Source: Arthrobacter sp. (lineage in GTDB: Bacteria; Actinomycetota; Actinomycetes; Actinomycetales; Micrococcaceae). From it: a stretch of DNA of 36,736 nucleotides. The position numbers were made by a program, and so were the translations under genes. The stretch's first letter is position 1, and every line of letters begins with the position of its first letter. The DNA lies in the NCBI GenBank assembly GCA_025464875.1, contig JAODMV010000004.1, positions 1 through 36,736 on the forward strand, given 5' to 3'. Below, piece after piece: positions 2,214 to 14,213 of this stretch. The notes beneath the pieces were generated by a model that was not told the origin of the DNA, did no database searches, and saw only the letters and a program-made list of their open reading frames with translations.

Positions 2214-3200
2214 CTAGCTCCAGAGCGCCACGTGGAACTTCGAGCCGCGACGCTCTAGGCCGCGCGAGCCGCCCGGGGCAACCATCACGGCGGTCGCGTC
2301 CGCGGTGCTGACGAAGCGCTGCAGCATCTGCGCCATGGTGGTGGTCCGCCGGTGGTCCAGGGTGCTGGCCCACCACAGGCCAGAGACGGGTGTTCCGACG
2401 ACGGGCAAGCGGACCAGGGCCCCACCCTGGATTTCGGCCCGAACAATGTGTCCCATCGCCAGCATGACCCCCTCGCCCGCCCGCACTGCGGCGAGGGCGT
2501 CGGTTTCGCTGCTGAGCCGGATGACGTCCGGCGCCACGCCCGCCGACGCCAGCCAGCGGCCCTCTTCCGTGCCCTCCTGGATCCCGGCAGGTCCGGCGAA
2601 CCACGGCCTGCCCAGCAATTGGGCCACGGGCACCGGACCGTGCAGGCGCCCCAGGGGGTGCGCCGCAGCGGCCACGAAGACCCGCTGATAGCGCAGGAAC
2701 GGAACGCACTCCAGTCCCAGCTCGGTAACCGTGCTGCCGGCCCGGGCCGGTGGCCGGGCTCCCAGCGCGATGTCGCAGGCGCGCTGTGCCAGGAGCGAGG
2801 CGAGGTCCTCGGCCGGTTCGGCGACCACATCCACCGAGGCCCCGGGGACCCGCTTCGTGAACAGGTCCAGGAGCCGGCCGGCCGCATGCTCTGCGAACGG
2901 CGAGGTGGCGACGATCTTCAGCCGTCCGGCGTCGTTCTTGGCGTGGGCGACCTCCCAGCGGGCCTGGTCCGCGAGCCCGACGATGTCCTGCGCGTAGTCG
3001 GTCAGGGCGCGGCCGCCGGGCGTCAGGGCGATGCCGCCCGCGGCGCGCACAAAGAGGGGGTCGCCAAGGTCCTGGCGGAGCGCCGCCAGGGCGGAGGAGA
3101 CCGCTGGCTCGCTGACGCCAAGGGCCTCGGCGGCAGCGTGGAGCGAGCCCAGCCGGGCAACGAGTGCGAACGTGCGGAGTTGGCTCAATGTCATCGACAC
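2214..3200 (-). CDS. LysR-type transcriptional regulator, divergent from the CO dehydrogenase operon
   Basis: Residues 3-62 form a classic LysR winged helix-turn-helix (LSQLRTFALVARLGSLHAAA, then SEPAVSSALAALRQDLGD and FVRAAGGIALTPGGR). The remainder is a periplasmic-binding-protein-like effector domain. Length (328 aa) is normal for the family. The start is GTG at 3200 with GAAAGG about ten bases upstream; an in-frame ATG at 3194 is the alternative. The gene is transcribed away from coxM with only 113 bp between them. LysR regulators divergent from CO dehydrogenase genes are known, for example CutR of Mycobacterium sp. JC1. I infer that this protein activates the cox operon and represses itself through the palindrome at 3203-3226. 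The inducer cannot be read from the sequence. Confidence 0.9.
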   Translation of the reverse strand: MSMTLSQLRTFALVARLGSLHAAAEALGVSEPAVSSALAALRQDLGDPLFVRAAGGIALTPGGRALTDYAQDIVGLADQARWEVAHAKNDAGRLKIVATSPFAEHAAGRLLDLFTKRVPGASVDVVAEPAEDLASLLAQRACDIALGARPPARAGSTVTELGLECVPFLRYQRVFVAAAAHPLGRLHGPVPVAQLLGRPWFAGPAGIQEGTEEGRWLASAGVAPDVIRLSSETDALAAVRAGEGVMLAMGHIVRAEIQGGALVRLPVVGTPVSGLWWASTLDHRRTTTMAQMLQRFVSTADATAVMVAPGGSRGLERRGSKFHVALWS

Positions 3201-3313: not shown

Positions 3314-4192
3314 ATGCAGATTCCGGCTCCATTCGACTATGTGCGCGCCACTTCGGTGGACGACGCGCTTGAACTCCTCTCGCGCCACGGCGCGGAGTCC
3401 CGGGTCGTCGCCGGGGGTCACAGCCTCCTGCCGATGATGAAGCTCCGGCTGTCCCGGCCCGAGTGGCTGATCGACATCAACGACCTTTACGAACTCGACT
3501 TCATCCTCCGCGACGGCGACAAGCTGCGGGTCGGCGCCCTGACCCGCCACACCACGCTCCTGGAGTCAGCCGAGGTTGCCGGGCTTTTCCCCATCGTCCG
3601 GGACGCCGAGTCAGTCATCGCCGACCCGATTGTCCGCAACCGCGGAACCATCGGCGGCTCGCTCTGCCAGGCCGATCCGGCCGAGGACCTGTCCACCGTG
3701 TGCGACGTCCTGGGCGCGGAAGCCGTCATCCGCGGGCCGGGCGGCGAGCGCATCTTGACTATGGCCGACTTCCACCGCGGCCCCTACGAGACGGCGGCGG
3801 GCCCGGATGAGTTGCTCTGCGAGCTCCGCTTCCCCGTCCGTTCCCGTTCCGGGAGCGCCTACGAGAAGGTTGAACGCCGGGTAGGCGACTGGGCTGTCGG
3901 TGCGGCCGGCGCCTCCGTCACGCTCGCCGGGGACGGTACGATCGCCGATGCCGCCGTCGGACTCACAGCCCTTGGACTCGACCACACGGTCGCGGAGGCC
4001 GGCGCGGTGCTGCGCGGCCAGCGTCCCGCGGAGGAGCTGTTCGTTGAGGCCGGACGGCTGGCAGCGGCTGCCTGCGATCCGGTGGACGACCAGCGCGGCC
4101 CGATCGACTATAAACGGCATCTCGCCGACGAACTCACCCGGCGCGTGCTGCGGCTAGCCTGCACCCGCGCAATCCAGACACAGGAAGGTTGA
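3314..4192 (+). CDS. coxM: CO dehydrogenase medium (FAD-binding) subunit
   Basis: This is the flavoprotein subunit of a molybdenum hydroxylase. It carries electrons from the [2Fe-2S] subunit via FAD to the respiratory chain. Two FAD-binding motifs are visible: VVAGGHSLLPMMK at residues 31-43 and NRGTIGGSLCQADPAED at 109-125. AGGHSLLPMMK is the version I associate with form I CO dehydrogenases. Its length (292 aa) matches CoxM of Oligotropha carboxidovorans (about 288). The ATG follows GAGGTAGG. It is the first gene of the operon, and its stop overlaps the ribosome-binding region of coxS, suggesting translational coupling. Confidence 0.93.
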   Translation: MQIPAPFDYVRATSVDDALELLSRHGAESRVVAGGHSLLPMMKLRLSRPEWLIDINDLYELDFILRDGDKLRVGALTRHTTLLESAEVAGLFPIVRDAESVIADPIVRNRGTIGGSLCQADPAEDLSTVCDVLGAEAVIRGPGGERILTMADFHRGPYETAAGPDELLCELRFPVRSRSGSAYEKVERRVGDWAVGAAGASVTLAGDGTIADAAVGLTALGLDHTVAEAGAVLRGQRPAEELFVEAGRLAAAACDPVDDQRGPIDYKRHLADELTRRVLRLACTRAIQTQEG

Positions 4193-4197
4193 CGGGG

Positions 4198-4754
4198 ATG
4201 CAGATCAACATGACCGTGAATGGCAACGAAGTCACGAACGACATTGAACCCCGTGTGCTCCTCGTCCACTACGTCCGCGAGGTCCTCGGCCTGACCGGCA
4301 CCCACTGGGGCTGCGACACAAGCAACTGCGGAACCTGCGTGGTCCTGATGGACGGGCAGCCGGTGAAATCCTGTACCGTCCTCGCGGCCATGGCCGCTGG
4401 CCACGACATCCGAACGGTCGAGGGACTGGCCGCAGGAGGAACGCTCGATCCCGTCCAACAGGGTTTCATGGCGGAACACGGGCTGCAATGCGGCTTCTGC
4501 ACCTCCGGCATGATGCTGACCGCCCGTGCCCTGCTGGACAAGAATCCGCATCCGGACGACACGGAGATCCGGCAGGCCATCTCGGGACAGATCTGCCGGT
4601 GCACGGGTTACGCAACCATCGTCCGCTCCGTGCACTGGGCAGCGGCTCACCCCGCCGGCGCCGACGCGGCAGCCACTGTCGACGCGGTTCTCGACGGCAC
4701 GGACAACGCGGTCCCGGATATCGCAACGGAGCTAGTGGAGACAGAGGTGAAGGC

Positions 4755-4758
<4 letters not shown>
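4198..4758 (+). CDS. coxS: CO dehydrogenase small subunit, two [2Fe-2S] clusters
   Basis: The small iron-sulfur subunit relays electrons from the Mo-Cu site to the FAD. The N-terminal plant-ferredoxin-like cluster is held by Cys39, Cys44, Cys47 and Cys59 (GCDTSNCGTC ... C). The C-terminal four-helix domain binds the second cluster via CGFC (98-101) and CRCTG (133-137). I place the start at ATG 4198, because AGGAAGG at 4182-4188 is correctly spaced for it. A TTG at 4189 overlapping the coxM stop is the alternative. At 186 residues the protein is longer than the typical 160-170 because of an acidic, Ala-rich tail after the last cluster domain. Its TGA overlaps the coxL ATG (ATGA). Confidence 0.95.
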
Positions 4759-7148
<2,390 letters not shown>

Positions 7149-7149
7149 C

Positions 7150-8085
7150 ATGACCCCGGCCACAGGCTCCCTTACGGCCCGGGCGAATGACCTCGCCTCC
7201 CGCCGTGAGCCGTTCGTCCACGCCACGGTGGTCCGCGCGCAGCGGCCCACCAGCGCCCACGCCGGGGACACGGCCCTGGTGCTCCCCAGCGGTGAGATCC
7301 AGGGCTTTGTGGGCGGAAACTGCGTCGAGTCCTCGGTGCGTGAATACAGCCGCCAGGTGCTGGCGTCCGAGGAGCCACTCCTGCTGCGCGTGGTGCCCGG
7401 CGAGCCCTCCCGCAGCGTGGAGGAGGGCGCCGTCGAGGTCTCAAACCCCTGTCTCAGCGGCGGCGCCATCGAGATCTTCCTCCAGCCGCGCATCCCGGCA
7501 CCGCGCGTGCTCGTGGTCGGCACGACGCCGGTGGCACAGGCGCTGGAGACCCTTGGTGCCGGCATCGGGTTAGCCGTGGAGCTCATCGACGGCGACTCGG
7601 CGGAGCCACGGACCGACGATGCGGCCCTGATTGTCGCCTCGCATGGAAAGGCAGAGGAAGCCGCCCTCGAGGCGGCCCTGCGCGCAGGTGTGCCCTACGT
7701 CGCCCTGGTTGCGAGCGAGAGCCGCGGGGCCGCCGTGCTTGACTCCCTCGACGTCGACGACGCACTGCGGGCGCGGGTCTTCACGCCCGCAGGCCTGCGG
7801 CTCGGAGCCCGCACCCCCGGGGAGATCGCTCTGTCGATCCTGGCCCAGCTCGTCCAGGAACGGGCCAAGGCCCGGCACGCCCCACCCCACCCGGCAGAAG
7901 CGCCGGCCGCGCCCGGATCCGCCGGAACGCCGGCGACGACGATCGACCCGGTCTGCGGCATGACCGTGGCGGCGGCGGAAACTTCGCCGCATCTCGAACA
8001 CGACGGCGCCGCTGTTTACTTTTGTTCGCCCGGCTGCCGTGCCGCCTTTCACAAGGATCCGGAGCACTATGCCCCCACACCCTGA
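7150..8085 (+). CDS. XdhC/CoxI-family cofactor-maturation protein fused to a C-terminal YHS metal-binding domain
   Basis: Residues 1-112 are an XdhC N-domain (FVGGNCVE at 53-60 and NPCLSGGAIEIF at 99-110). Residues 115-240 form the Rossmann-like XdhC C-domain, ending GLRLGARTPGEIALSILAQL. A Pro/Ala linker (about 242-264) then leads to a YHS domain at 265-305, with DPVCGM (Cys269) and FCSPGC (Cys292, Cys296). XdhC proteins bind and protect the molybdenum cofactor while its sulfido ligand is added before insertion. YHS domains are metal-binding and common in copper-transporting ATPases. In an operon for a Mo-S-Cu enzyme the fusion suggests a link between sulfurated cofactor and copper; this is inference. 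It starts one base after the coxL stop and overlaps the next gene by 17 bases. Confidence 0.88.
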   Translation: MTPATGSLTARANDLASRREPFVHATVVRAQRPTSAHAGDTALVLPSGEIQGFVGGNCVESSVREYSRQVLASEEPLLLRVVPGEPSRSVEEGAVEVSNPCLSGGAIEIFLQPRIPAPRVLVVGTTPVAQALETLGAGIGLAVELIDGDSAEPRTDDAALIVASHGKAEEAALEAALRAGVPYVALVASESRGAAVLDSLDVDDALRARVFTPAGLRLGARTPGEIALSILAQLVQERAKARHAPPHPAEAPAAPGSAGTPATTIDPVCGMTVAAAETSPHLEHDGAAVYFCSPGCRAAFHKDPEHYAPTP

Positions 8086-8731
8086 GCGCAGGAGCGCCGG
8101 CCTGATCCTGGCGGCAGGAGGATCGCGGCGCCTCGGACGGCCAAAGCAACTGCTGCCCTACGGCGGGGGCGTGCTGCTGGACGCCGTCCTTGCCACCGCC
8201 CGGGACTGCGGCTTGGACCAGATTGTCCTGGCACTGGGAGGAGCGGCCGCGGAGGTACAAGGCACTGTGAATACCAGCGGCTGCGACGTGGTGGTCAACC
8301 GCGACTTCGGCGAGGGCTGTTCTTCCTCGATTGCCACGGGAATGGCCGTGCTGCACCCGGAAACGGATGCTTTGGTCCTGTTGCTCGGGGACCAACCGGG
8401 GGTCCGGGCCGCGAGCGTCCGCGCACTGCTGGGCGTCCTCTTCGGCGGACCGGGTCCGGAGGGCGCCGCGCCGCGGAGCCGCCTTCAAGGGGCTGACCGG
8501 CCCGGCATCGCCGTGTGCCGCTACGACAACGGGATCGGCCATCCCCTGGCCTTCGCCAAGGCGTTCCTGCCAGAGCTGTCCGGCTTCCACGGTGACAAGG
8601 CGGTCTGGAAGCTGCTGGACCGGCGGGCGGACGACGTCGTCGAGCTTGCCGTCCCCGGTCCCGTGCCGCTGGACGTCGACACGGAAGAGGACTACCGCCG
8701 GGTCCTGGCCGAGTTGGAAGGAGCGCTGTGA
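8069..8731 (+). CDS. MocA/MobA-like molybdopterin nucleotidyltransferase
   Basis: The N-terminus has the nucleotidyltransferase signature LILAAGGSRRLGRPKQLLPY, with the Gly-rich NTP loop and the Lys that contacts phosphates. LLLGDQPGV is the metal-binding acidic motif, and a C-terminal LDVDTEEDYRRVL closes the fold. The family uses CTP (MocA) or GTP (MobA) to attach a nucleotide to molybdopterin. Since CO dehydrogenases use the cytosine dinucleotide form, cytidylyltransferase activity is the better guess. I chose ATG 8069, with GGAG shortly upstream inside the preceding gene. A frame extension to 8039 is possible but lacks a site. At 220 aa it is slightly longer than typical MocA (about 190-200). 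Its TGA overlaps the coxD GTG. Confidence 0.85.
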   Translation: MPPHPERRSAGLILAAGGSRRLGRPKQLLPYGGGVLLDAVLATARDCGLDQIVLALGGAAAEVQGTVNTSGCDVVVNRDFGEGCSSSIATGMAVLHPETDALVLLLGDQPGVRAASVRALLGVLFGGPGPEGAAPRSRLQGADRPGIAVCRYDNGIGHPLAFAKAFLPELSGFHGDKAVWKLLDRRADDVVELAVPGPVPLDVDTEEDYRRVLAELEGAL

Positions 8732-9651
8732 GCGCGGCGGCGCGCACCGGCGCAGAAGAGGACGTACGGCGGCGGGTGCCCGATGTTCCCTCGCTGATGG
8801 CAGCGCTGGACCGGAACGACTACCTGGCCGAGGTAGGCCTGGCCACGGCACTGTTCCTCGCCGTCCGGCTGCCGCAGCCCATCCTCCTAGAGGGAGAGGC
8901 CGGCGTGGGCAAGACCGAGGCGGCGAAAGCCCTGGCCGAGTTGCTGGATACGCCGCTCTACCGGCTGCAGTGCTACGAAGGGATTGACGCCGGTGAGGCC
9001 CTCTACGAGTGGAACCACCAGAGGCAGCTCCTCGGGATCCGGCTGGCCGAAGTGCGCGACGCCTCCGTCACCGAAGCCGACCTCTTTAGCCCGGAGTACC
9101 TGCTGCGGCGACCGCTGCTTCAGGCGATCGAGCACGGCGGCCCGAGGCCTGCGGTGCTGCTGCTGGACGAGATCGACCGCGCTGACGCCGAGTTCGAGGC
9201 CTTCACCTTTGAGCTACTGGCCGAGGCCGCGGTCACCATCCCGGAACTCGGCACTATCCAGGCCACCCATCCGCCGATCGTCATCCTGACCTCCAACCGG
9301 ACCAGGGATCTGCACGACGCCCTCACCCGCCGCTGCCTCTATCACTGGATCGACTACCCCGGACCGGACCGGATCGCGGAAATCATCCGACGCCGCGTAC
9401 CGGCGAGCAGCGGCCCGCTCGCCCTGCAGGCCGCAGCCGTGATCACCAAGCTGCGCACCCTGGACCTTGCCAAGCCCCCGGGGATTTCGGAGGCCATCGA
9501 TTGGGTTGCAGCCCTGGCCGTACTGGGCGTCGGACATATTGACGCCACGACGGCGGAGCGGACCTGGGGCTCGATCGTCAAGAACCGGGATGACCTGGAG
9601 CTGGTCGGCGCCCGCGGGGCAGCCTGGCTCGTGGACGGCACCGGTGGCTGA
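8728..9651 (+). CDS. coxD: CoxD-type MoxR AAA+ ATPase
   Basis: This is a single AAA+ module. Walker A is GEAGVGKT (56-63), Walker B is LLLDEID (144-150), and there is a sensor-like ILTSNRT and a DALTRRCLYHWIDYP motif typical of the MoxR group. In O. carboxidovorans, CoxD is needed to sulfurate the Mo centre of apo-CO dehydrogenase and works with the VWA protein CoxE. The GTG start at 8728 overlaps the stop of the nucleotidyltransferase, and AAGGAG at 8718-8723 serves as ribosome-binding site. Length (307 aa) is normal. The gene is followed without a gap by coxE, as in other CO dehydrogenase clusters. Confidence 0.93.
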   Translation: MSAAARTGAEEDVRRRVPDVPSLMAALDRNDYLAEVGLATALFLAVRLPQPILLEGEAGVGKTEAAKALAELLDTPLYRLQCYEGIDAGEALYEWNHQRQLLGIRLAEVRDASVTEADLFSPEYLLRRPLLQAIEHGGPRPAVLLLDEIDRADAEFEAFTFELLAEAAVTIPELGTIQATHPPIVILTSNRTRDLHDALTRRCLYHWIDYPGPDRIAEIIRRRVPASSGPLALQAAAVITKLRTLDLAKPPGISEAIDWVAALAVLGVGHIDATTAERTWGSIVKNRDDLELVGARGAAWLVDGTGG

Positions 9652-10882
9652 GGGCGCCGCGCCCCCGGTGGTGGCGGCGGCCCTGTCCGCTGCCTTCATC
9701 ACGGCCCTGCGGCGGGCGGGGCTGTCCTGTTCCCCCGACCGGGCGGTCCGGCTCGCCGAAGCCCTCCACCTGGTCCCTCCGAGCGACGTTGAACCGCTCT
9801 ACTGGACGTCCCGGGTGGTGCTGGTGTCCACACGTGAGCAGCTCCCGGTGTTTGATGCCGTCTTCTCCGCCGTGTTCCGCGGCGGCTTCGATCCTGCCGC
9901 GCAGCTGCTCGGTGCGGGAGCGCCGGCGGCGGGCCTCGAAGAGGCCCATACCCGGCCTTCCCCCGGCGACAACCGCGCGACGCCGATCGAACAGCCCCGC
10001 CAGCGTTCCCATCCAGCCGTTGCCTCGGCCGGAGCGGAGGGCCCCCCGGGCCGCGATCCTTCCGAACGGGAAGCCATGCTGGCCGCGGCCTCAACTGACG
10101 AGCACCTGCACGAGATGTCCTTCGCGGCGCTTTCCTCCGAGGAAGTCCGCGACATCAGGAGCCTGGTGGCCCGGCTGCTGCTCGCGACGCCGGCGCGCTT
10201 GAGCCGACGCACCCGCAAGTCCGCCCACAGCAGCGCCCGGCTGGACATCCGGGCCACGGTCCGCGCGGCCCGGCGCTCCGGTTCCGACACCACCCGGCTG
10301 CTGTATGCCCGGCGTCGTGAGCAGCGGCGCAAACTGGTGCTGCTTTGCGACGTCTCCGGCTCGATGGAACCGTACGCGCGGGTCTTCGTCTCGCTGCTGC
10401 AGGGATCGGTGGCCTCTGCCGGGGCTGAGGCGTTCGTGTTCTCCACCCGCCTGACACGACTAACCCGGCAACTCTCGCTGCGCGACCCCGACGAGGCGCT
10501 GGCCCGTGCCGCCGCCACGGCCCCCGACTGGGCCGGGGGTACGCGGATCGCCGATAGCCTCCGCCGCTTCGTGGACGAACACGGCCGCCGCGGGCTCGCC
10601 CGAGGCGCGGTGGTTGTGATCTTCTCCGACGGCTGGGCCCAGGAGGATCCCGAGCAGGTCGGCGCCCAGATGGCGCGGCTGCGGAGGCTGGCGTACCGGG
10701 TTATCTGGGTGAATCCGCGCAAGGCGGCACCGGGCTACCAGCCGCTGGTGGGCGGAATGGCGGCCGCCCTGCCATACTGCGACGCCTTTGTCAGCGGCCA
10801 CAGCTACACGGCGTTGGTAGAGCTGGCAGCCGCAATCCGCGGCGACGGCCAGTCATCATTTGAGAGGCAAAGGACCAGCTAA
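9644..10882 (+). CDS. coxE: CoxE, VWA-domain protein for CO dehydrogenase maturation
   Basis: The C-terminal half is a VWA_CoxE domain with a complete MIDAS site: DVSGS (from Asp236), the GGTRI threonine and FSDGW. The N-terminal half is helical, with RRAGLSCSPDRAVRLAEAL and LYWTSRVVLVSTREQLPVFD. The two are joined by a Pro/Arg-rich linker and the helical SSEEVRDIRSLVARLLL. CoxE partners the CoxD ATPase, and its VWA domain is thought to present the apo-enzyme to it. I place the start at GTG 9644, which overlaps the coxD stop; the frame upstream of it is antisense-like sequence within coxD. The stop TAA shares one base with the coxG ATG. Confidence 0.9.
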   Translation: MAEGAAPPVVAAALSAAFITALRRAGLSCSPDRAVRLAEALHLVPPSDVEPLYWTSRVVLVSTREQLPVFDAVFSAVFRGGFDPAAQLLGAGAPAAGLEEAHTRPSPGDNRATPIEQPRQRSHPAVASAGAEGPPGRDPSEREAMLAAASTDEHLHEMSFAALSSEEVRDIRSLVARLLLATPARLSRRTRKSAHSSARLDIRATVRAARRSGSDTTRLLYARRREQRRKLVLLCDVSGSMEPYARVFVSLLQGSVASAGAEAFVFSTRLTRLTRQLSLRDPDEALARAAATAPDWAGGTRIADSLRRFVDEHGRRGLARGAVVVIFSDGWAQEDPEQVGAQMARLRRLAYRVIWVNPRKAAPGYQPLVGGMAAALPYCDAFVSGHSYTALVELAAAIRGDGQSSFERQRTS

Positions 10883-11673
10883 TGCACATTGACAGCACAT
10901 TCGAGGTAGTCGCCCCGATCGATCAGGTGTGGGACACGCTCACGGACTTTGAACGGGTGGCCGGCTGCGTCCCCGGCGCCAGGATCCTGAACAAACTCTC
11001 CGAGGATGCGTACCAGGTGGGCATGACGGTAAAGCTAGGCCCGGTAAACATGCAGTACAAGGGCCTGCTGAATGTCGTCGAGCGCAATGCCGCCGAACAC
11101 CGCGCGGTACTCAGCGGCAAGGCCCAGGAGACGCGCGGGCAGGGCACCGCGGAGGCAACCGTCACGCTGCTCCTAACAGAAGATGGCGGCCCTACGCGCG
11201 GGACCGTCACCGCCGACGTGGCACTCTCCGGAAAGGCCGCTGCCATGGGCAAGGCGGTTATTGGCAGCGTCACCGAGCAGATGATGTCCGTCTTCGCGAA
11301 GAATCTGCAGGCCATGCTGGCGGATCCGGCGAAGGAACCTGCCCTTGTTTCCGGATCCGCTTCGGAGACGAGTGCGGCGCCCGCGCCCGCGCCTGCGGAA
11401 GACTCGGTGGCCGGAGCGGTGGCCGGTTCCGCCCCGTTACAGACGTCGGAGCTCACGCGCCCCGTTCCGATGGCTGTCCCTCCGGCCATCAGCGCGGCGG
11501 CAGCGCCCGCGAGCGGCAGCCTGGACGCGTGGAACCTCGCCAAGGGCGTCGCCGCAGATCAGCTCTCGAGCCCCGGCAAGCTTTTCGGCGTCGTGGCCGT
11601 GGTGGCGTGCCTCGCCTACTGGGCCGGCCGGCGGTCGGCGTTCCGGATGCTCCGGCTTTGCGGCAGGCTCTGA
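10882..11673 (+). CDS. coxG: CoxG, SRPBCC-fold protein with C-terminal membrane anchor
   Basis: Residues 1-150 are a CoxG/SRPBCC domain (FEVVAPIDQVWDTLTDFERV, CVPGA, LGPVNMQYKG, AMGKAVIGSVTEQMM). An Ala/Pro-rich linker of about 65 residues follows. Near the C-terminus a single hydrophobic helix (LFGVVAVVACLAYWAG) is followed by the Arg-rich tail RRSAFRMLRLCGRL. In O. carboxidovorans CoxG helps attach CO dehydrogenase to the inner membrane. More recent mycobacterial work, recalled rather than checked, proposes that the domain carries menaquinone to the enzyme. The visible soluble cavity domain plus tether fits either role. ATG 10882 lies downstream of a GAGGCAAAGGA site in coxE. Confidence 0.9.
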   Translation: MHIDSTFEVVAPIDQVWDTLTDFERVAGCVPGARILNKLSEDAYQVGMTVKLGPVNMQYKGLLNVVERNAAEHRAVLSGKAQETRGQGTAEATVTLLLTEDGGPTRGTVTADVALSGKAAAMGKAVIGSVTEQMMSVFAKNLQAMLADPAKEPALVSGSASETSAAPAPAPAEDSVAGAVAGSAPLQTSELTRPVPMAVPPAISAAAAPASGSLDAWNLAKGVAADQLSSPGKLFGVVAVVACLAYWAGRRSAFRMLRLCGRL

Positions 11674-11682
11674 GGACCGCCC

Positions 11683-12810
11683 ATGCGTGATGTTCTGGAT
11701 GCCATGATGCCGGGCTGGCGGAGGGGCGACACCGCAGGGCTGGCCACTGTCGTGAGCACTTACAGTTCCGCCCCGAGGCTCCCGGGGGCGTCCATGCTGG
11801 TCACTGCCGCGGGCGAAGCTGTGGGGTCGGTTTCAGGCGGCTGCGTCGAGGGCGCCGTCTATGAGCTCGCCACACAGGTCAGGGAGGAGGGAAAGGCGGT
11901 CCTCGTGCGCTACGGGATCAGCGACGACGATGCGTACGCCGTCGGCCTGACCTGCGGCGGGATCATCGACATCTTCGTGGAGCCGGTCTCGCCGGAGAGC
12001 TTTGCCGAACTCGACGACGTCGGACAGGACATCGCGGCCGGGCGGCGGGTGGGGGTCGCAACGGTGATCGAGCACGCGGACAGCAGCCGGCTGGGCCGAC
12101 ACCTCGTCGTTAGGCCGGACGGTTTCGACGGCGACCTCGGCTCCGAGCGGTCCAACTGTGCTGTCGGCGATGACACCCAGGGCCTCCTCGCCGCCGGGCA
12201 GACCGGTATCCTCAGCTACGGCCTCGACGGCGAACGGCTCGACACCGGCATGCGGGTCTTCTTCGCAAGCTACGCGCCGCCGCCGCGGATGCTCGTCTTC
12301 GGAGCCATCGACTTCGCCGCCGCGCTGGCCCGGCTGGGATCCTTCCTCGGATACCGCGTCACTGTCTGCGACGCCCGTGCCATCTTCGCCACTCCCGCCA
12401 GGTTCCCGGACGCGGCGGAAGTCGTCAACGCGTGGCCGCACCGCTATCTGGCCGAGCAGCTTTCCAAGCGCCTGGTGGATGAACGGACCGTCCTCTGTGT
12501 CCTTACACATGACCCGAAATTCGATATCCCGCTGCTGGAAGTGGCCCTGAGCGGCAGCCCGGTCGCTTTCATCGGCGCCATGGGCTCCCGGCGGACCCAT
12601 GCGGACAGGATTGCCCGGCTGCGCCACGCGGGCCTGGGCGAGGCCGAGTTGTCCAGGCTCCACAGCCCGGTGGGACTGGACCTCGGCGCACGCACCCCCG
12701 AGGAGACGGCAGTCTCCATCGCGGCCGAGTTCATCGCCAGGCAGTGGAACGGCACCGGCGTGCCGTTGCGGCAACTTGGCGAGCGGATCCACCACGAGGA
12801 GCCACGCTGA
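11683..12810 (+). CDS. coxF: CoxF, full-length XdhC/CoxI-family maturation protein
   Basis: The N-domain shows ATVVSTYSSAPRLPGASMLV and SGGCVEGAVYE (Cys54). It is followed by LTCGGIIDIFVEP. The C-terminal Rossmann domain starts near RMLVFGAIDFAAALARLG and ends with AFIGAMGSRRTHADR and LDLGARTPEETAVSIAAEF. This is the standard two-domain XdhC layout (375 aa), distinct from the YHS-bearing paralogue four genes upstream. CoxF is implicated in completing the bimetallic cluster in O. carboxidovorans, possibly at the copper step. The gene begins 9 bases after coxG, with GAGGA before the ATG, and its stop abuts the DUF5134 gene. Confidence 0.9.
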   Translation: MRDVLDAMMPGWRRGDTAGLATVVSTYSSAPRLPGASMLVTAAGEAVGSVSGGCVEGAVYELATQVREEGKAVLVRYGISDDDAYAVGLTCGGIIDIFVEPVSPESFAELDDVGQDIAAGRRVGVATVIEHADSSRLGRHLVVRPDGFDGDLGSERSNCAVGDDTQGLLAAGQTGILSYGLDGERLDTGMRVFFASYAPPPRMLVFGAIDFAAALARLGSFLGYRVTVCDARAIFATPARFPDAAEVVNAWPHRYLAEQLSKRLVDERTVLCVLTHDPKFDIPLLEVALSGSPVAFIGAMGSRRTHADRIARLRHAGLGEAELSRLHSPVGLDLGARTPEETAVSIAAEFIARQWNGTGVPLRQLGERIHHEEPR

Positions 12811-13550
12811 TTGCCGACGGCGCCCTGCGCTGGGCAATGACAGCCGTGCTGCTGGCAGCGACCCTGTACTCGGGCTTCCGGGCCAGCAGGAAATCGGCGC
12901 TGGCCAACCGGGTCGACCATGGCCTCCATGCCGTGATGATGGCGGCCATGGTCCTCATGCTGGCGCCCGGCGTACAGTGGGCCGTGCTGCCCCAGATTCT
13001 CGTTTTCGTCCTGGCCGCTGGATGGTTTCTCATCCAGGCCGCGTCCCTGCCGGCAATCCATGGAGCCGGCACCGGACTCGCCGGCCGCGGAAAGCCTCTC
13101 TACGACGCACTCGTCATGGCGGCCATGGCGTACATGCTGGCCGCGATGGCCTTCCACGGGACCCGCGAAGCGGGTGCGGGCACGGACGTTGCCGTGATCC
13201 TGGGCCAGTCATCACATCACCGCGGGGATGCGGCCGCAGGGCAGCCACTGGCCCGGCCACTGCAGGACTGGGGCGGTCAGCCGGCTCTTCTCCTGGCCGT
13301 GGCGTTCTCAGTGGCCGGAGCCCTCTGGGCAGTGCGCATGCTCCGGCAGCTTCGAGACGAGGCCAAGGCGCAGCCGGCCCGCCCCGGTCAGGGCCCTTCC
13401 GGACGCCGTCTCACCGTTCACCACCGCTCCGGACGCCGTCTTCCGGCGGGCAATTCTCCGGGACAAGGTTCTCTGCGAATTTGCGACACCGTCCTTGAGC
13501 TCGTGGGCGCGGCTTCGATGGCCGTCATGTTCGCGGCGTTGGTGCCCTGA
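12810..13550 (+). CDS. DUF5134 six-helix membrane protein with His/Met ladders, end of cox operon
   Basis: About six hydrophobic segments are visible, beginning with MTAVLLAATLYSGFRA and ending ELVGAASMAVMFAALVP. Two helices carry regularly spaced metal-type ligands: His37, His40, Met43/44, Met47, Met50; and Met103, Met106, Met109, Met113, His116 (numbered from 12810). A loop contains SSHHRGD. Spacing of 3-4 places these side chains on one face of each helix. The start is unclear. GAGGAG sits correctly for a rare ATT at 12810, ATG 12837 lacks a site and would clip the first helix, and ATG 12744 would overlap coxF by 67 bases. The family function is unknown. Copper transfer for the Mo-Cu site is my inference from ligands and position. 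Confidence 0.75.
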   Translation: MADGALRWAMTAVLLAATLYSGFRASRKSALANRVDHGLHAVMMAAMVLMLAPGVQWAVLPQILVFVLAAGWFLIQAASLPAIHGAGTGLAGRGKPLYDALVMAAMAYMLAAMAFHGTREAGAGTDVAVILGQSSHHRGDAAAGQPLARPLQDWGGQPALLLAVAFSVAGALWAVRMLRQLRDEAKAQPARPGQGPSGRRLTVHHRSGRRLPAGNSPGQGSLRICDTVLELVGAASMAVMFAALVP

Positions 13551-13592: not shown

Positions 13593-14213
13593 ATGGCGAG
13601 ATACTTCGATGTGCACCCCGACAACCCCCAGCCGCGCTCCATCAACCAAGTCATGGATATCGTGCGGGCGGGCGGCCTGATCGCCTATCCGACCGACTCC
13701 TGTTACGCACTCGGCGCGCAACTGGGGAACAGGGACGCGCTGGACCGCATCCGCGGGATCCGCCACCTCGACGACAAGCACCACTTCACGCTGGTCTGTA
13801 AGGACTTCGCGCAGCTGGGGCAGTTCGTGCAGATCGACAATGATGTGTTCCGCAGCATCAAGTCCGTCACGCCCGGCAGCTACACCTTCATCCTGCCCGC
13901 GACCAAAGAGGTACCCAAGCGCCTGCTGCACCCGAAAAAGAAGACCGTCGGGGTACGCATCCCGGACAACCCTGTGGTCCAGGCGCTGCTGGCCGAGCTG
14001 GGCGAACCATTGCTGTCCAGCACGCTGCTGCTCCCCGACGAGGAGGAACCGCTGACTCAGGGCTGGGAAATCAAGGAACGGCTCGACCACGTTCTGGACG
14101 CCGTGATCGACTCCGGCGACTGCGGGTCCGAGCCGACCACGGTCATCGACTTTTCCAGCGGGGTTGCAGAGATCGTCCGACGCGGGACGGGTGACCCGTC
14201 CCGGTTCGAATAG
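13593..14213 (+). CDS. Sua5/YciO/YrdC-family protein (YciO-like)
   Basis: Residues 14-195 form a YrdC domain: INQVMDIVRAGGLIAYPTDS, LDRIRGIRHLDDKHHFTLVCKD, PGSYTFILPAT and VGVRIPDNPVVQALL. The pattern and 206-aa length match YciO rather than TsaC/Sua5. YrdC-domain enzymes make L-threonylcarbamoyladenylate for the t6A modification of tRNA. YciO is a close paralogue whose contribution is less certain, so the exact activity should not be assumed. The ATG has only a weak GTGGG upstream. It ends two bases before the stop of a convergent small membrane protein gene. Confidence 0.85.
   Translation: MARYFDVHPDNPQPRSINQVMDIVRAGGLIAYPTDSCYALGAQLGNRDALDRIRGIRHLDDKHHFTLVCKDFAQLGQFVQIDNDVFRSIKSVTPGSYTFILPATKEVPKRLLHPKKKTVGVRIPDNPVVQALLAELGEPLLSSTLLLPDEEEPLTQGWEIKERLDHVLDAVIDSGDCGSEPTTVIDFSSGVAEIVRRGTGDPSRFE

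Follow-up and report, generated by a model that had tools for sequence, protein, structure and literature searches.

The gene that follows coxF in a form-I CO dehydrogenase operon of Arthrobacter sp. encodes a DUF5134 protein that is probably a Cu(I)-binding membrane protein and an importer supplying cytoplasmic copper enzymes. Little of bacterial copper import has been mapped, and the systems described so far mostly serve respiratory oxidases (PMC7558416, PMC13038864, PMC13344008); our literature search found no mention of DUF5134. An earlier note on this DNA had proposed, from the letters alone, that the protein might be a copper channel with ladders of His and Met residues in two transmembrane helices. 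The copper role held up well, as the ladder is conserved through DUF5134 and the genes recur beside copper enzymes and copper pumps. Met ladders conserved within the membrane, a His/Met loop predicted to be external, and copper genes as recurrent neighbours together make it very likely that the protein binds copper. That it is a six-helix, threefold protein of the cytoplasmic membrane carrying Cu(I) inward to cytoplasmic enzymes has, in our estimate, about an even chance of being correct.

The window examined is the whole stretch of 36,736 nucleotides, and features described below lie on its forward strand unless stated otherwise. The frame at 12810-13550 (+) has 246 open codons, and its product matches PF17197 (DUF5134) over residues 33-244 (E 1.1e-20, 74.5 bits against a cut-off of 29); with six predicted helices, this agrees with the original assignment to a DUF5134 membrane protein. 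The start had been placed at ATT 12810. It is most likely CTG 12807-12809 instead, because an NTG codon (ATG, GTG or TTG) occupies the same position in 12 of 12 cox-linked homologues with an aligned start region and a GAGGAG, the probable ribosome binding site (12796..12801, +), lies inside coxF five nucleotides before the CTG. The gene would then span 12807..13550 (+) and encode 247 amino acids, or 246 if read from ATT; residue numbers here are counted from ATT 12810 and rise by one each if CTG 12807 is the start. The overlap with the coxF stop was found as described, the coxF TGA (12808-12810) falling inside the DUF5134 frame, and with the CTG start it takes the form CTGA. In the host genome, at 83% completeness, a single DUF5134 protein was found. 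Among the cox-linked relatives that have a name, the closest come from Arthrobacter sp. Leaf69 and an Arthrobacter metagenome-assembled genome, and a plasmid search with the protein returned no match.

The operon is ordered coxM-coxS-coxL-xdhC/YHS-mocA-coxD-coxE-coxG-coxF, followed by the DUF5134 gene. Its enzyme subunits are encoded by coxM (FAD subunit, 3314..4192; PF00941, E 4.5e-43), coxS (iron-sulfur subunit, 4189..4758; PF01799, E 1.9e-30) and coxL (form-I large subunit, 4755..7148; TIGR02416, 1369 bits against a cut-off of 991), and CoxL carries the active-site motif AYACSFR (form-I AYxCSFR, with the Cu-ligand Cys). An XdhC/CoxI-type protein with a fused C-terminal YHS domain (7051-8085; PF04945, E 1.9e-10) is encoded next; its YHS tail possibly binds metal and is a candidate cytoplasmic copper acceptor within the same operon. 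The maturation genes include coxD (AAA+ ATPase of cluster maturation, 8728..9651; PF07728, E 5e-11), so called because it is syntenic with the MoxR-family gene that follows coxL on Afipia pHCG3, and coxE (VWA protein, 9467..10882; PF05762, E 3e-57), whose 5' end overlaps coxD and whose real start is probably further downstream. These are followed by coxG (10882..11673; PF06240, E 1.3e-19) and coxF (XdhC family, 11683..12810; PF13478, E 2.5e-41, and PF02625, E 2.6e-32). A pattern search of CoxF found nothing resembling MCPSHGTM, the suspected copper motif of Oligotropha CoxF (PMC4240915), so the copper route of this CoxF may differ from that of Oligotropha. That the DUF5134 gene closes the operon, as the earlier note had it, is not certain, since a same-strand gene of the Sua5/YciO/YrdC family (13593..14213; PF01300, E 1.5e-45) begins only 42 bp downstream. 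On the reverse strand, a LysR-type gene (2214-3200) is divergent from coxM and is a likely regulator of this cox operon.

Conservation of the ladder residues, lack of which the earlier note had named as refuting its proposal, was checked; the outcome did not refute it and singled out Met. The translation contains every residue of the proposed ladders (H40, M43, M44, M47 and M50; M103, M106, M109, M113 and H116). In an alignment of 40 DUF5134 proteins, drawn from this bacterial family and more distant actinobacteria, the mean column identity is 27% and six columns reach at least 90% identity, every one of them Met: M43, M47, M50, M109, M113 and M237. With Met making up 12 of the 246 residues, six out of six has a hypergeometric p of ~3e-9. 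Met is found at positions 43 and 47 in all 40 proteins, at 50 in 39, at 109 in 38, at 113 and 237 in 36 each, and at 240 in 35, while positions 103 and 106 are Met in 27 and 21. Position 40 is His in 31 proteins and Glu in eight, Glu being the residue of the Streptomyces-type copies; position 99, a ladder position in TM4, is His in 35 of the 40 and Asp in this protein, while the remaining copies without His have Asp, Asn or Tyr there. Membership of the proposed ladders therefore stood only in part, as Met44 and His116, conserved in only 2/40 and 4/40, were rejected. Among 11 intact cox-linked copies M47, M50, M103, M106, M109, M240, H136 and H137 are invariant.

The ladders number three and not two, as they recur in a repeat of the whole protein. 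The AlphaFold2 model has six helices (pLDDT 82, pTM 0.78). The first helices of the three repeats are TM1 (residues 4-27, 12819..12890), TM3 (residues 59-79, 12984..13046) and TM5 (residues 156-186, 13275..13367). The second helices carry the ladders: TM2 (residues 31-51, 12900..12962) has H40-M43-M44-M47-M50, TM4 (residues 94-123, 13089..13178) has D99-M103-M106-M109-M113, and TM6 (residues 219-244, 13464..13541) has a third ladder, E230-A234-M237-M240. In pairwise comparisons of helix profiles TM2, TM4 and TM6 match one another at offsets of 59, 131 and 190 (p<0.0005 each), and TM1, TM3 and TM5 do so at 52, 100 and 152 (p 0.0125 for TM1 with TM3, <0.0005 for the other two pairs, including TM1 with TM5). 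Both sets of offsets are additive (59+131=190, 52+100=152), and of the odd-even helix pairs only one matched, at p 0.028. When every offset was scanned with no account taken of helix borders, the best five were 190, 59, 152, 100 and 131; the TM1/3/5 offsets survive masking of the Met and His columns, and in two sub-alignments 59, 152 and 190 were still in the top ten, though gap-rich loops score too. As a control, the known triple repeat of MHYT was recovered by the same test. By these comparisons DUF5134 is three copies of one two-helix hairpin, a threefold repeat newly recognised here, which gives three equivalent ladders. Aligned, these read L-H40-AV-M43-M44-AA-M47-VL-M50 in TM2, Y-D99-ALV-M103-AA-M106-AY-M109 in TM4 and L-E230-LVG-A234-AS-M237-AV-M240 in TM6, roughly [His/Asp/Glu]-x3-[Met]-x2-Met-x2-Met for each second helix. 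A conservation-moment test of ladder facing showed no ladder face. A profile search against PDB chains returned nothing significant and no Ctr match at E up to 1; a fold search of the PDB gave no significant match (best E 0.48) and one of a viral fold library gave none, so that neither sequence nor fold linked DUF5134 to a solved copper transporter. Ccsp, a copper storage protein of Streptomyces, was matched weakly by fold (E above 1), and this was dismissed as similarity between generic helix bundles.

Loop charges orient this predicted structure. Across the family, mean Lys+Arg is 2.0-3.5 in loops 1-2, 3-4 and 5-6 and 0.3-0.7 in loops 2-3 and 4-5. The positive-inside rule then predicts that each ladder has its Met end outside and its His/acid end in the cytoplasm, and that both termini are outside. 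The invariant His136-His137 pair of the cox-linked copies (13215..13220) would then sit in extracellular loop 4-5. This loop has family means of 2.9 His and 2.5 Met and is Met-rich in many relatives; in this protein it has two His and no Met.

Gene neighbourhoods place the family beside copper proteins repeatedly. We tallied by hand 49 DUF5134 places in 150 Arthrobacter genomes. Form-I coxL is present in 42 of the 150 genomes, and in 13 of these 42 DUF5134 lies ~6-8 kb downstream on the same strand, thus accounting for 13 of the 49 places. In a further 22 places a copper amine oxidase gene on the same strand precedes DUF5134 by at most 2.3 kb, often with an amino-acid permease between them. 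Of the remainder, six stand behind an amino-acid permease and one beside CopA/CtaG, five fall at contig ends and two belong to none of these kinds. Adjacency to the amine oxidase has p ~1e-57 if genes are taken as independent with an assumed background rate, a figure weakened by relatedness. No signal peptide was seen at the N termini of the DUF5134-linked amine oxidases, and amine oxidases of this kind have been described as intracellular (PMC9547800). No CopA or CtaG was found near the coxL-linked or amine-oxidase-linked Arthrobacter copies; among other actinobacteria, CopA and CtaG together adjoin DUF5134 at four loci and CopA alone at two. PepSY_TM adjoins it at five loci, and at another stands with CtaG/CopD and CopA. 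The tree has one cox clade (support 99/96), whose neighbour is the branch containing the amine-oxidase copies; the CopA/CtaG and PepSY_TM contexts fall elsewhere. Eight Streptomyces-type copies form one group, in which at least six adjoin an M48 peptidase; no copper gene was recognised beside them among neighbours that are annotated in part only.

Some divergent relatives were also seen. Sub-threshold DUF5134-like hits follow an amine oxidase by 0.2-1.7 kb in G292, G610, G687 and G723, and sub-threshold DUF5134-like proteins at two loci (L061 in G292, L077 in G565) likewise adjoin copper amine oxidase genes, which suggests that the family is wider than PF17197. One divergent DUF5134 gene has a NicO nickel/cobalt transporter gene nearby (L125 536-1591, G604).

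The supply of CO dehydrogenase in particular is weakened by the frequent loss of the gene. DUF5134 is absent from 29 of the 42 form-I cox operons of the genus, and Sua5 directly follows coxF in four operons that lack it. Four operons keep relics only and three other copies are truncated or frameshifted; these seven loci, between coxF and sua5, show repeated loss of DUF5134, and one of them (L150) comes from a low-quality assembly. Since so many operons lack the gene or hold a broken copy, CO dehydrogenase does not need DUF5134, which is at most an accessory supplier. Nine pairs of cox-linked copies have dN/dS of 0.30-0.54, a weak constraint. Form-I coxL in the genus also falls into two groups by the end of the profile match (769 or 770); DUF5134 follows coxL in the first group only (13/25 vs 0/17), and several operons of the second group have no coxG or coxF hit after coxE.

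Inward transport is the simplest reading of these data because the two commonest contexts are intracellular copper enzymes. Under such a mechanism the three ladders would surround one axis as stacked Met triads, with M50/M109/M240 outermost and M47/M106/M237 beneath. Outside, the His/Met-rich loop 4-5 would capture Cu(I), which would then descend the triads and leave them on the cytoplasmic side close to His40, Asp99 and Glu230. The receivers would be maturation factors of a cytoplasmic copper enzyme: CO dehydrogenase by way of CoxF in this operon, copper amine oxidase elsewhere. Cluster maturation of CO dehydrogenase is cytoplasmic according to the Oligotropha account, which proposes Cu(I) delivery via CoxF with CoxE, CoxF being the soluble copper donor (PMC4240915). 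Hand-over to CoxF is proposed here, and the DUF5134 gene overlaps that for this putative Cu(I) deliverer. The earlier remark that copper supply to this enzyme has no assigned transporter holds only in part, CoxF being the proposed soluble donor; the passages of that account consulted here name no transporter for the membrane step. PepSY_TM neighbours, where present, could supply Cu(I) on the outside, as this family has been proposed, from work in Bordetella, to include a copper reductase (PMC13038864).

One of the closest known copper systems is Ctr1, whose filter consists of Met triads stacked in two layers close to the extracellular entrance (PMC6437178). Both have conserved Met pairs in a membrane helix (M-x3-M in Ctr1, M43-x3-M47-x2-M50 in DUF5134, where the pore position of M43 and M47 is putative), Met layers near the extracellular entrance (predicted for DUF5134) and a threefold arrangement (in DUF5134 a threefold repeat of the sequence), and most DUF5134 proteins share with Ctr1 an extracellular Met/His-rich segment. 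However, Ctr1 consists of three chains of three helices, whereas DUF5134 is one chain of six predicted helices with an internal repeat, has M-x2-M between conserved triads and a His/acid layer in the same helices, and matches Ctr in neither sequence nor fold. By analogy, the three ladders could form a Ctr1-like Met filter in a single chain. The importers CcoA and CalT (PMC8406296, PMC6362234) share MxxxM and HxxxM membrane motifs and the supply of cytoplasmic copper, as proposed for DUF5134, but have a 12-helix MFS fold, and DUF5134 has no MFS family hit. The YcnJ/CopCD importers (PMC13344008) likewise take up copper across Gram-positive membranes, and a CopD/CtaG protein adjoins some DUF5134 genes; they differ in having CopC and CopD domains, which are other Pfam families, with no match to DUF5134.

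The MHYT domain (PF03707), the nearest parallel in architecture, likewise consists of three two-helix hairpins whose TM2, TM4 and TM6 carry Met/His motifs, and it occurs in cox clusters. CoxC of Afipia carboxidovorans is an MHYT-LytTR protein, and MHYT needs copper for CO sensing (PMC11347149). DUF5134 might accordingly be a counterpart of MHYT, a copper-dependent sensor that, like CoxC, signals CO, O2 or copper to a partner protein. On Afipia pHCG3, MHYT proteins are encoded next to coxM and immediately behind coxG, and no MHYT protein was found in the host genome or 60 relatives, leaving a vacant place for which DUF5134 is a candidate. We nevertheless consider a sensor unlikely, though a serious rival: MHYT has M-H-[YF] motifs, an extra helix and often an output domain, and DUF5134 has neither an output domain nor the MH[YF]T motif. 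Homology of the two was rejected (hhalign gave a probability of 0.2% with E 0.33, helix tests between the two families were not significant, and there was no PF03707 match among the families listed for the 40 DUF5134 members), the agreement being one of architecture, and a sensor leaves the linkage to amine oxidase, CopA, CtaG and PepSY_TM unexplained. The pHCG3 MHYT protein after coxG (L198 16437-17637) is annotated as two overlapping reading frames, perhaps one frameshifted gene.

CopA is the usual Cu(I) exporter, and its presence with CtaG beside several relatives would fit a protein that clears Cu(I) from the cell, stores it or passes it to factors assembling oxidases outside the cytoplasm. 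Such a role in efflux, buffering or membrane insertion is rather unlikely, given that in Arthrobacter the family most often lies beside cytoplasmic copper enzymes of two kinds with neither gene found nearby, that the Met-rich end and the His-rich loop are predicted outside, and that no cytoplasmic Cys/His metal-binding tail was seen in DUF5134. The two membrane His residues common in the family (His40 and His99) could instead be the ligands of a b heme placed between the helices TM2 and TM4, for example in a partner of a copper or quinone reductase, and some relatives do adjoin PepSY_TM and ferric-reductase-like genes. We give this very little credence, as the substitutions at positions 99 and 40, in this protein and the Streptomyces-type copies among others, remove these His residues; the invariant residues are Met, and for heme ligation the conserved ladder of TM6, the third, would be superfluous. 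Lastly, DUF5134 might have an unrelated role and owe its place beside coxF to an accident inherited within one Arthrobacter lineage, in keeping with the single cox clade, the loss or decay in many operons and the dN/dS values. This, too, is quite improbable: several further copper contexts are found in other parts of the tree, the putative copper ligands are the most conserved residues, and the start overlaps coxF as in translational coupling.

We therefore retain a copper importer as the preferred reading, and its broadest form is tentative: DUF5134 may be a new importer family, in which a single-chain, pseudo-threefold Met-triad channel was recruited to CopA/CtaG/PepSY_TM loci and to those of copper amine oxidase and form-I CO dehydrogenase. 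It would then be the supplier of copper at the membrane that has been missing for the cytoplasmic cuproenzymes of actinobacteria. This conserved family travels with the few cytoplasmic copper enzymes, CO dehydrogenase and the Arthrobacter amine oxidases, whose copper it would carry through the membrane step. The threefold repeat turns the proposal into a structural prediction of three equivalent Met ladders around one axis. If the broadest form is true, the triple-hairpin plan common to MHYT and DUF5134, without detectable homology, would represent a common design for membrane copper binding.
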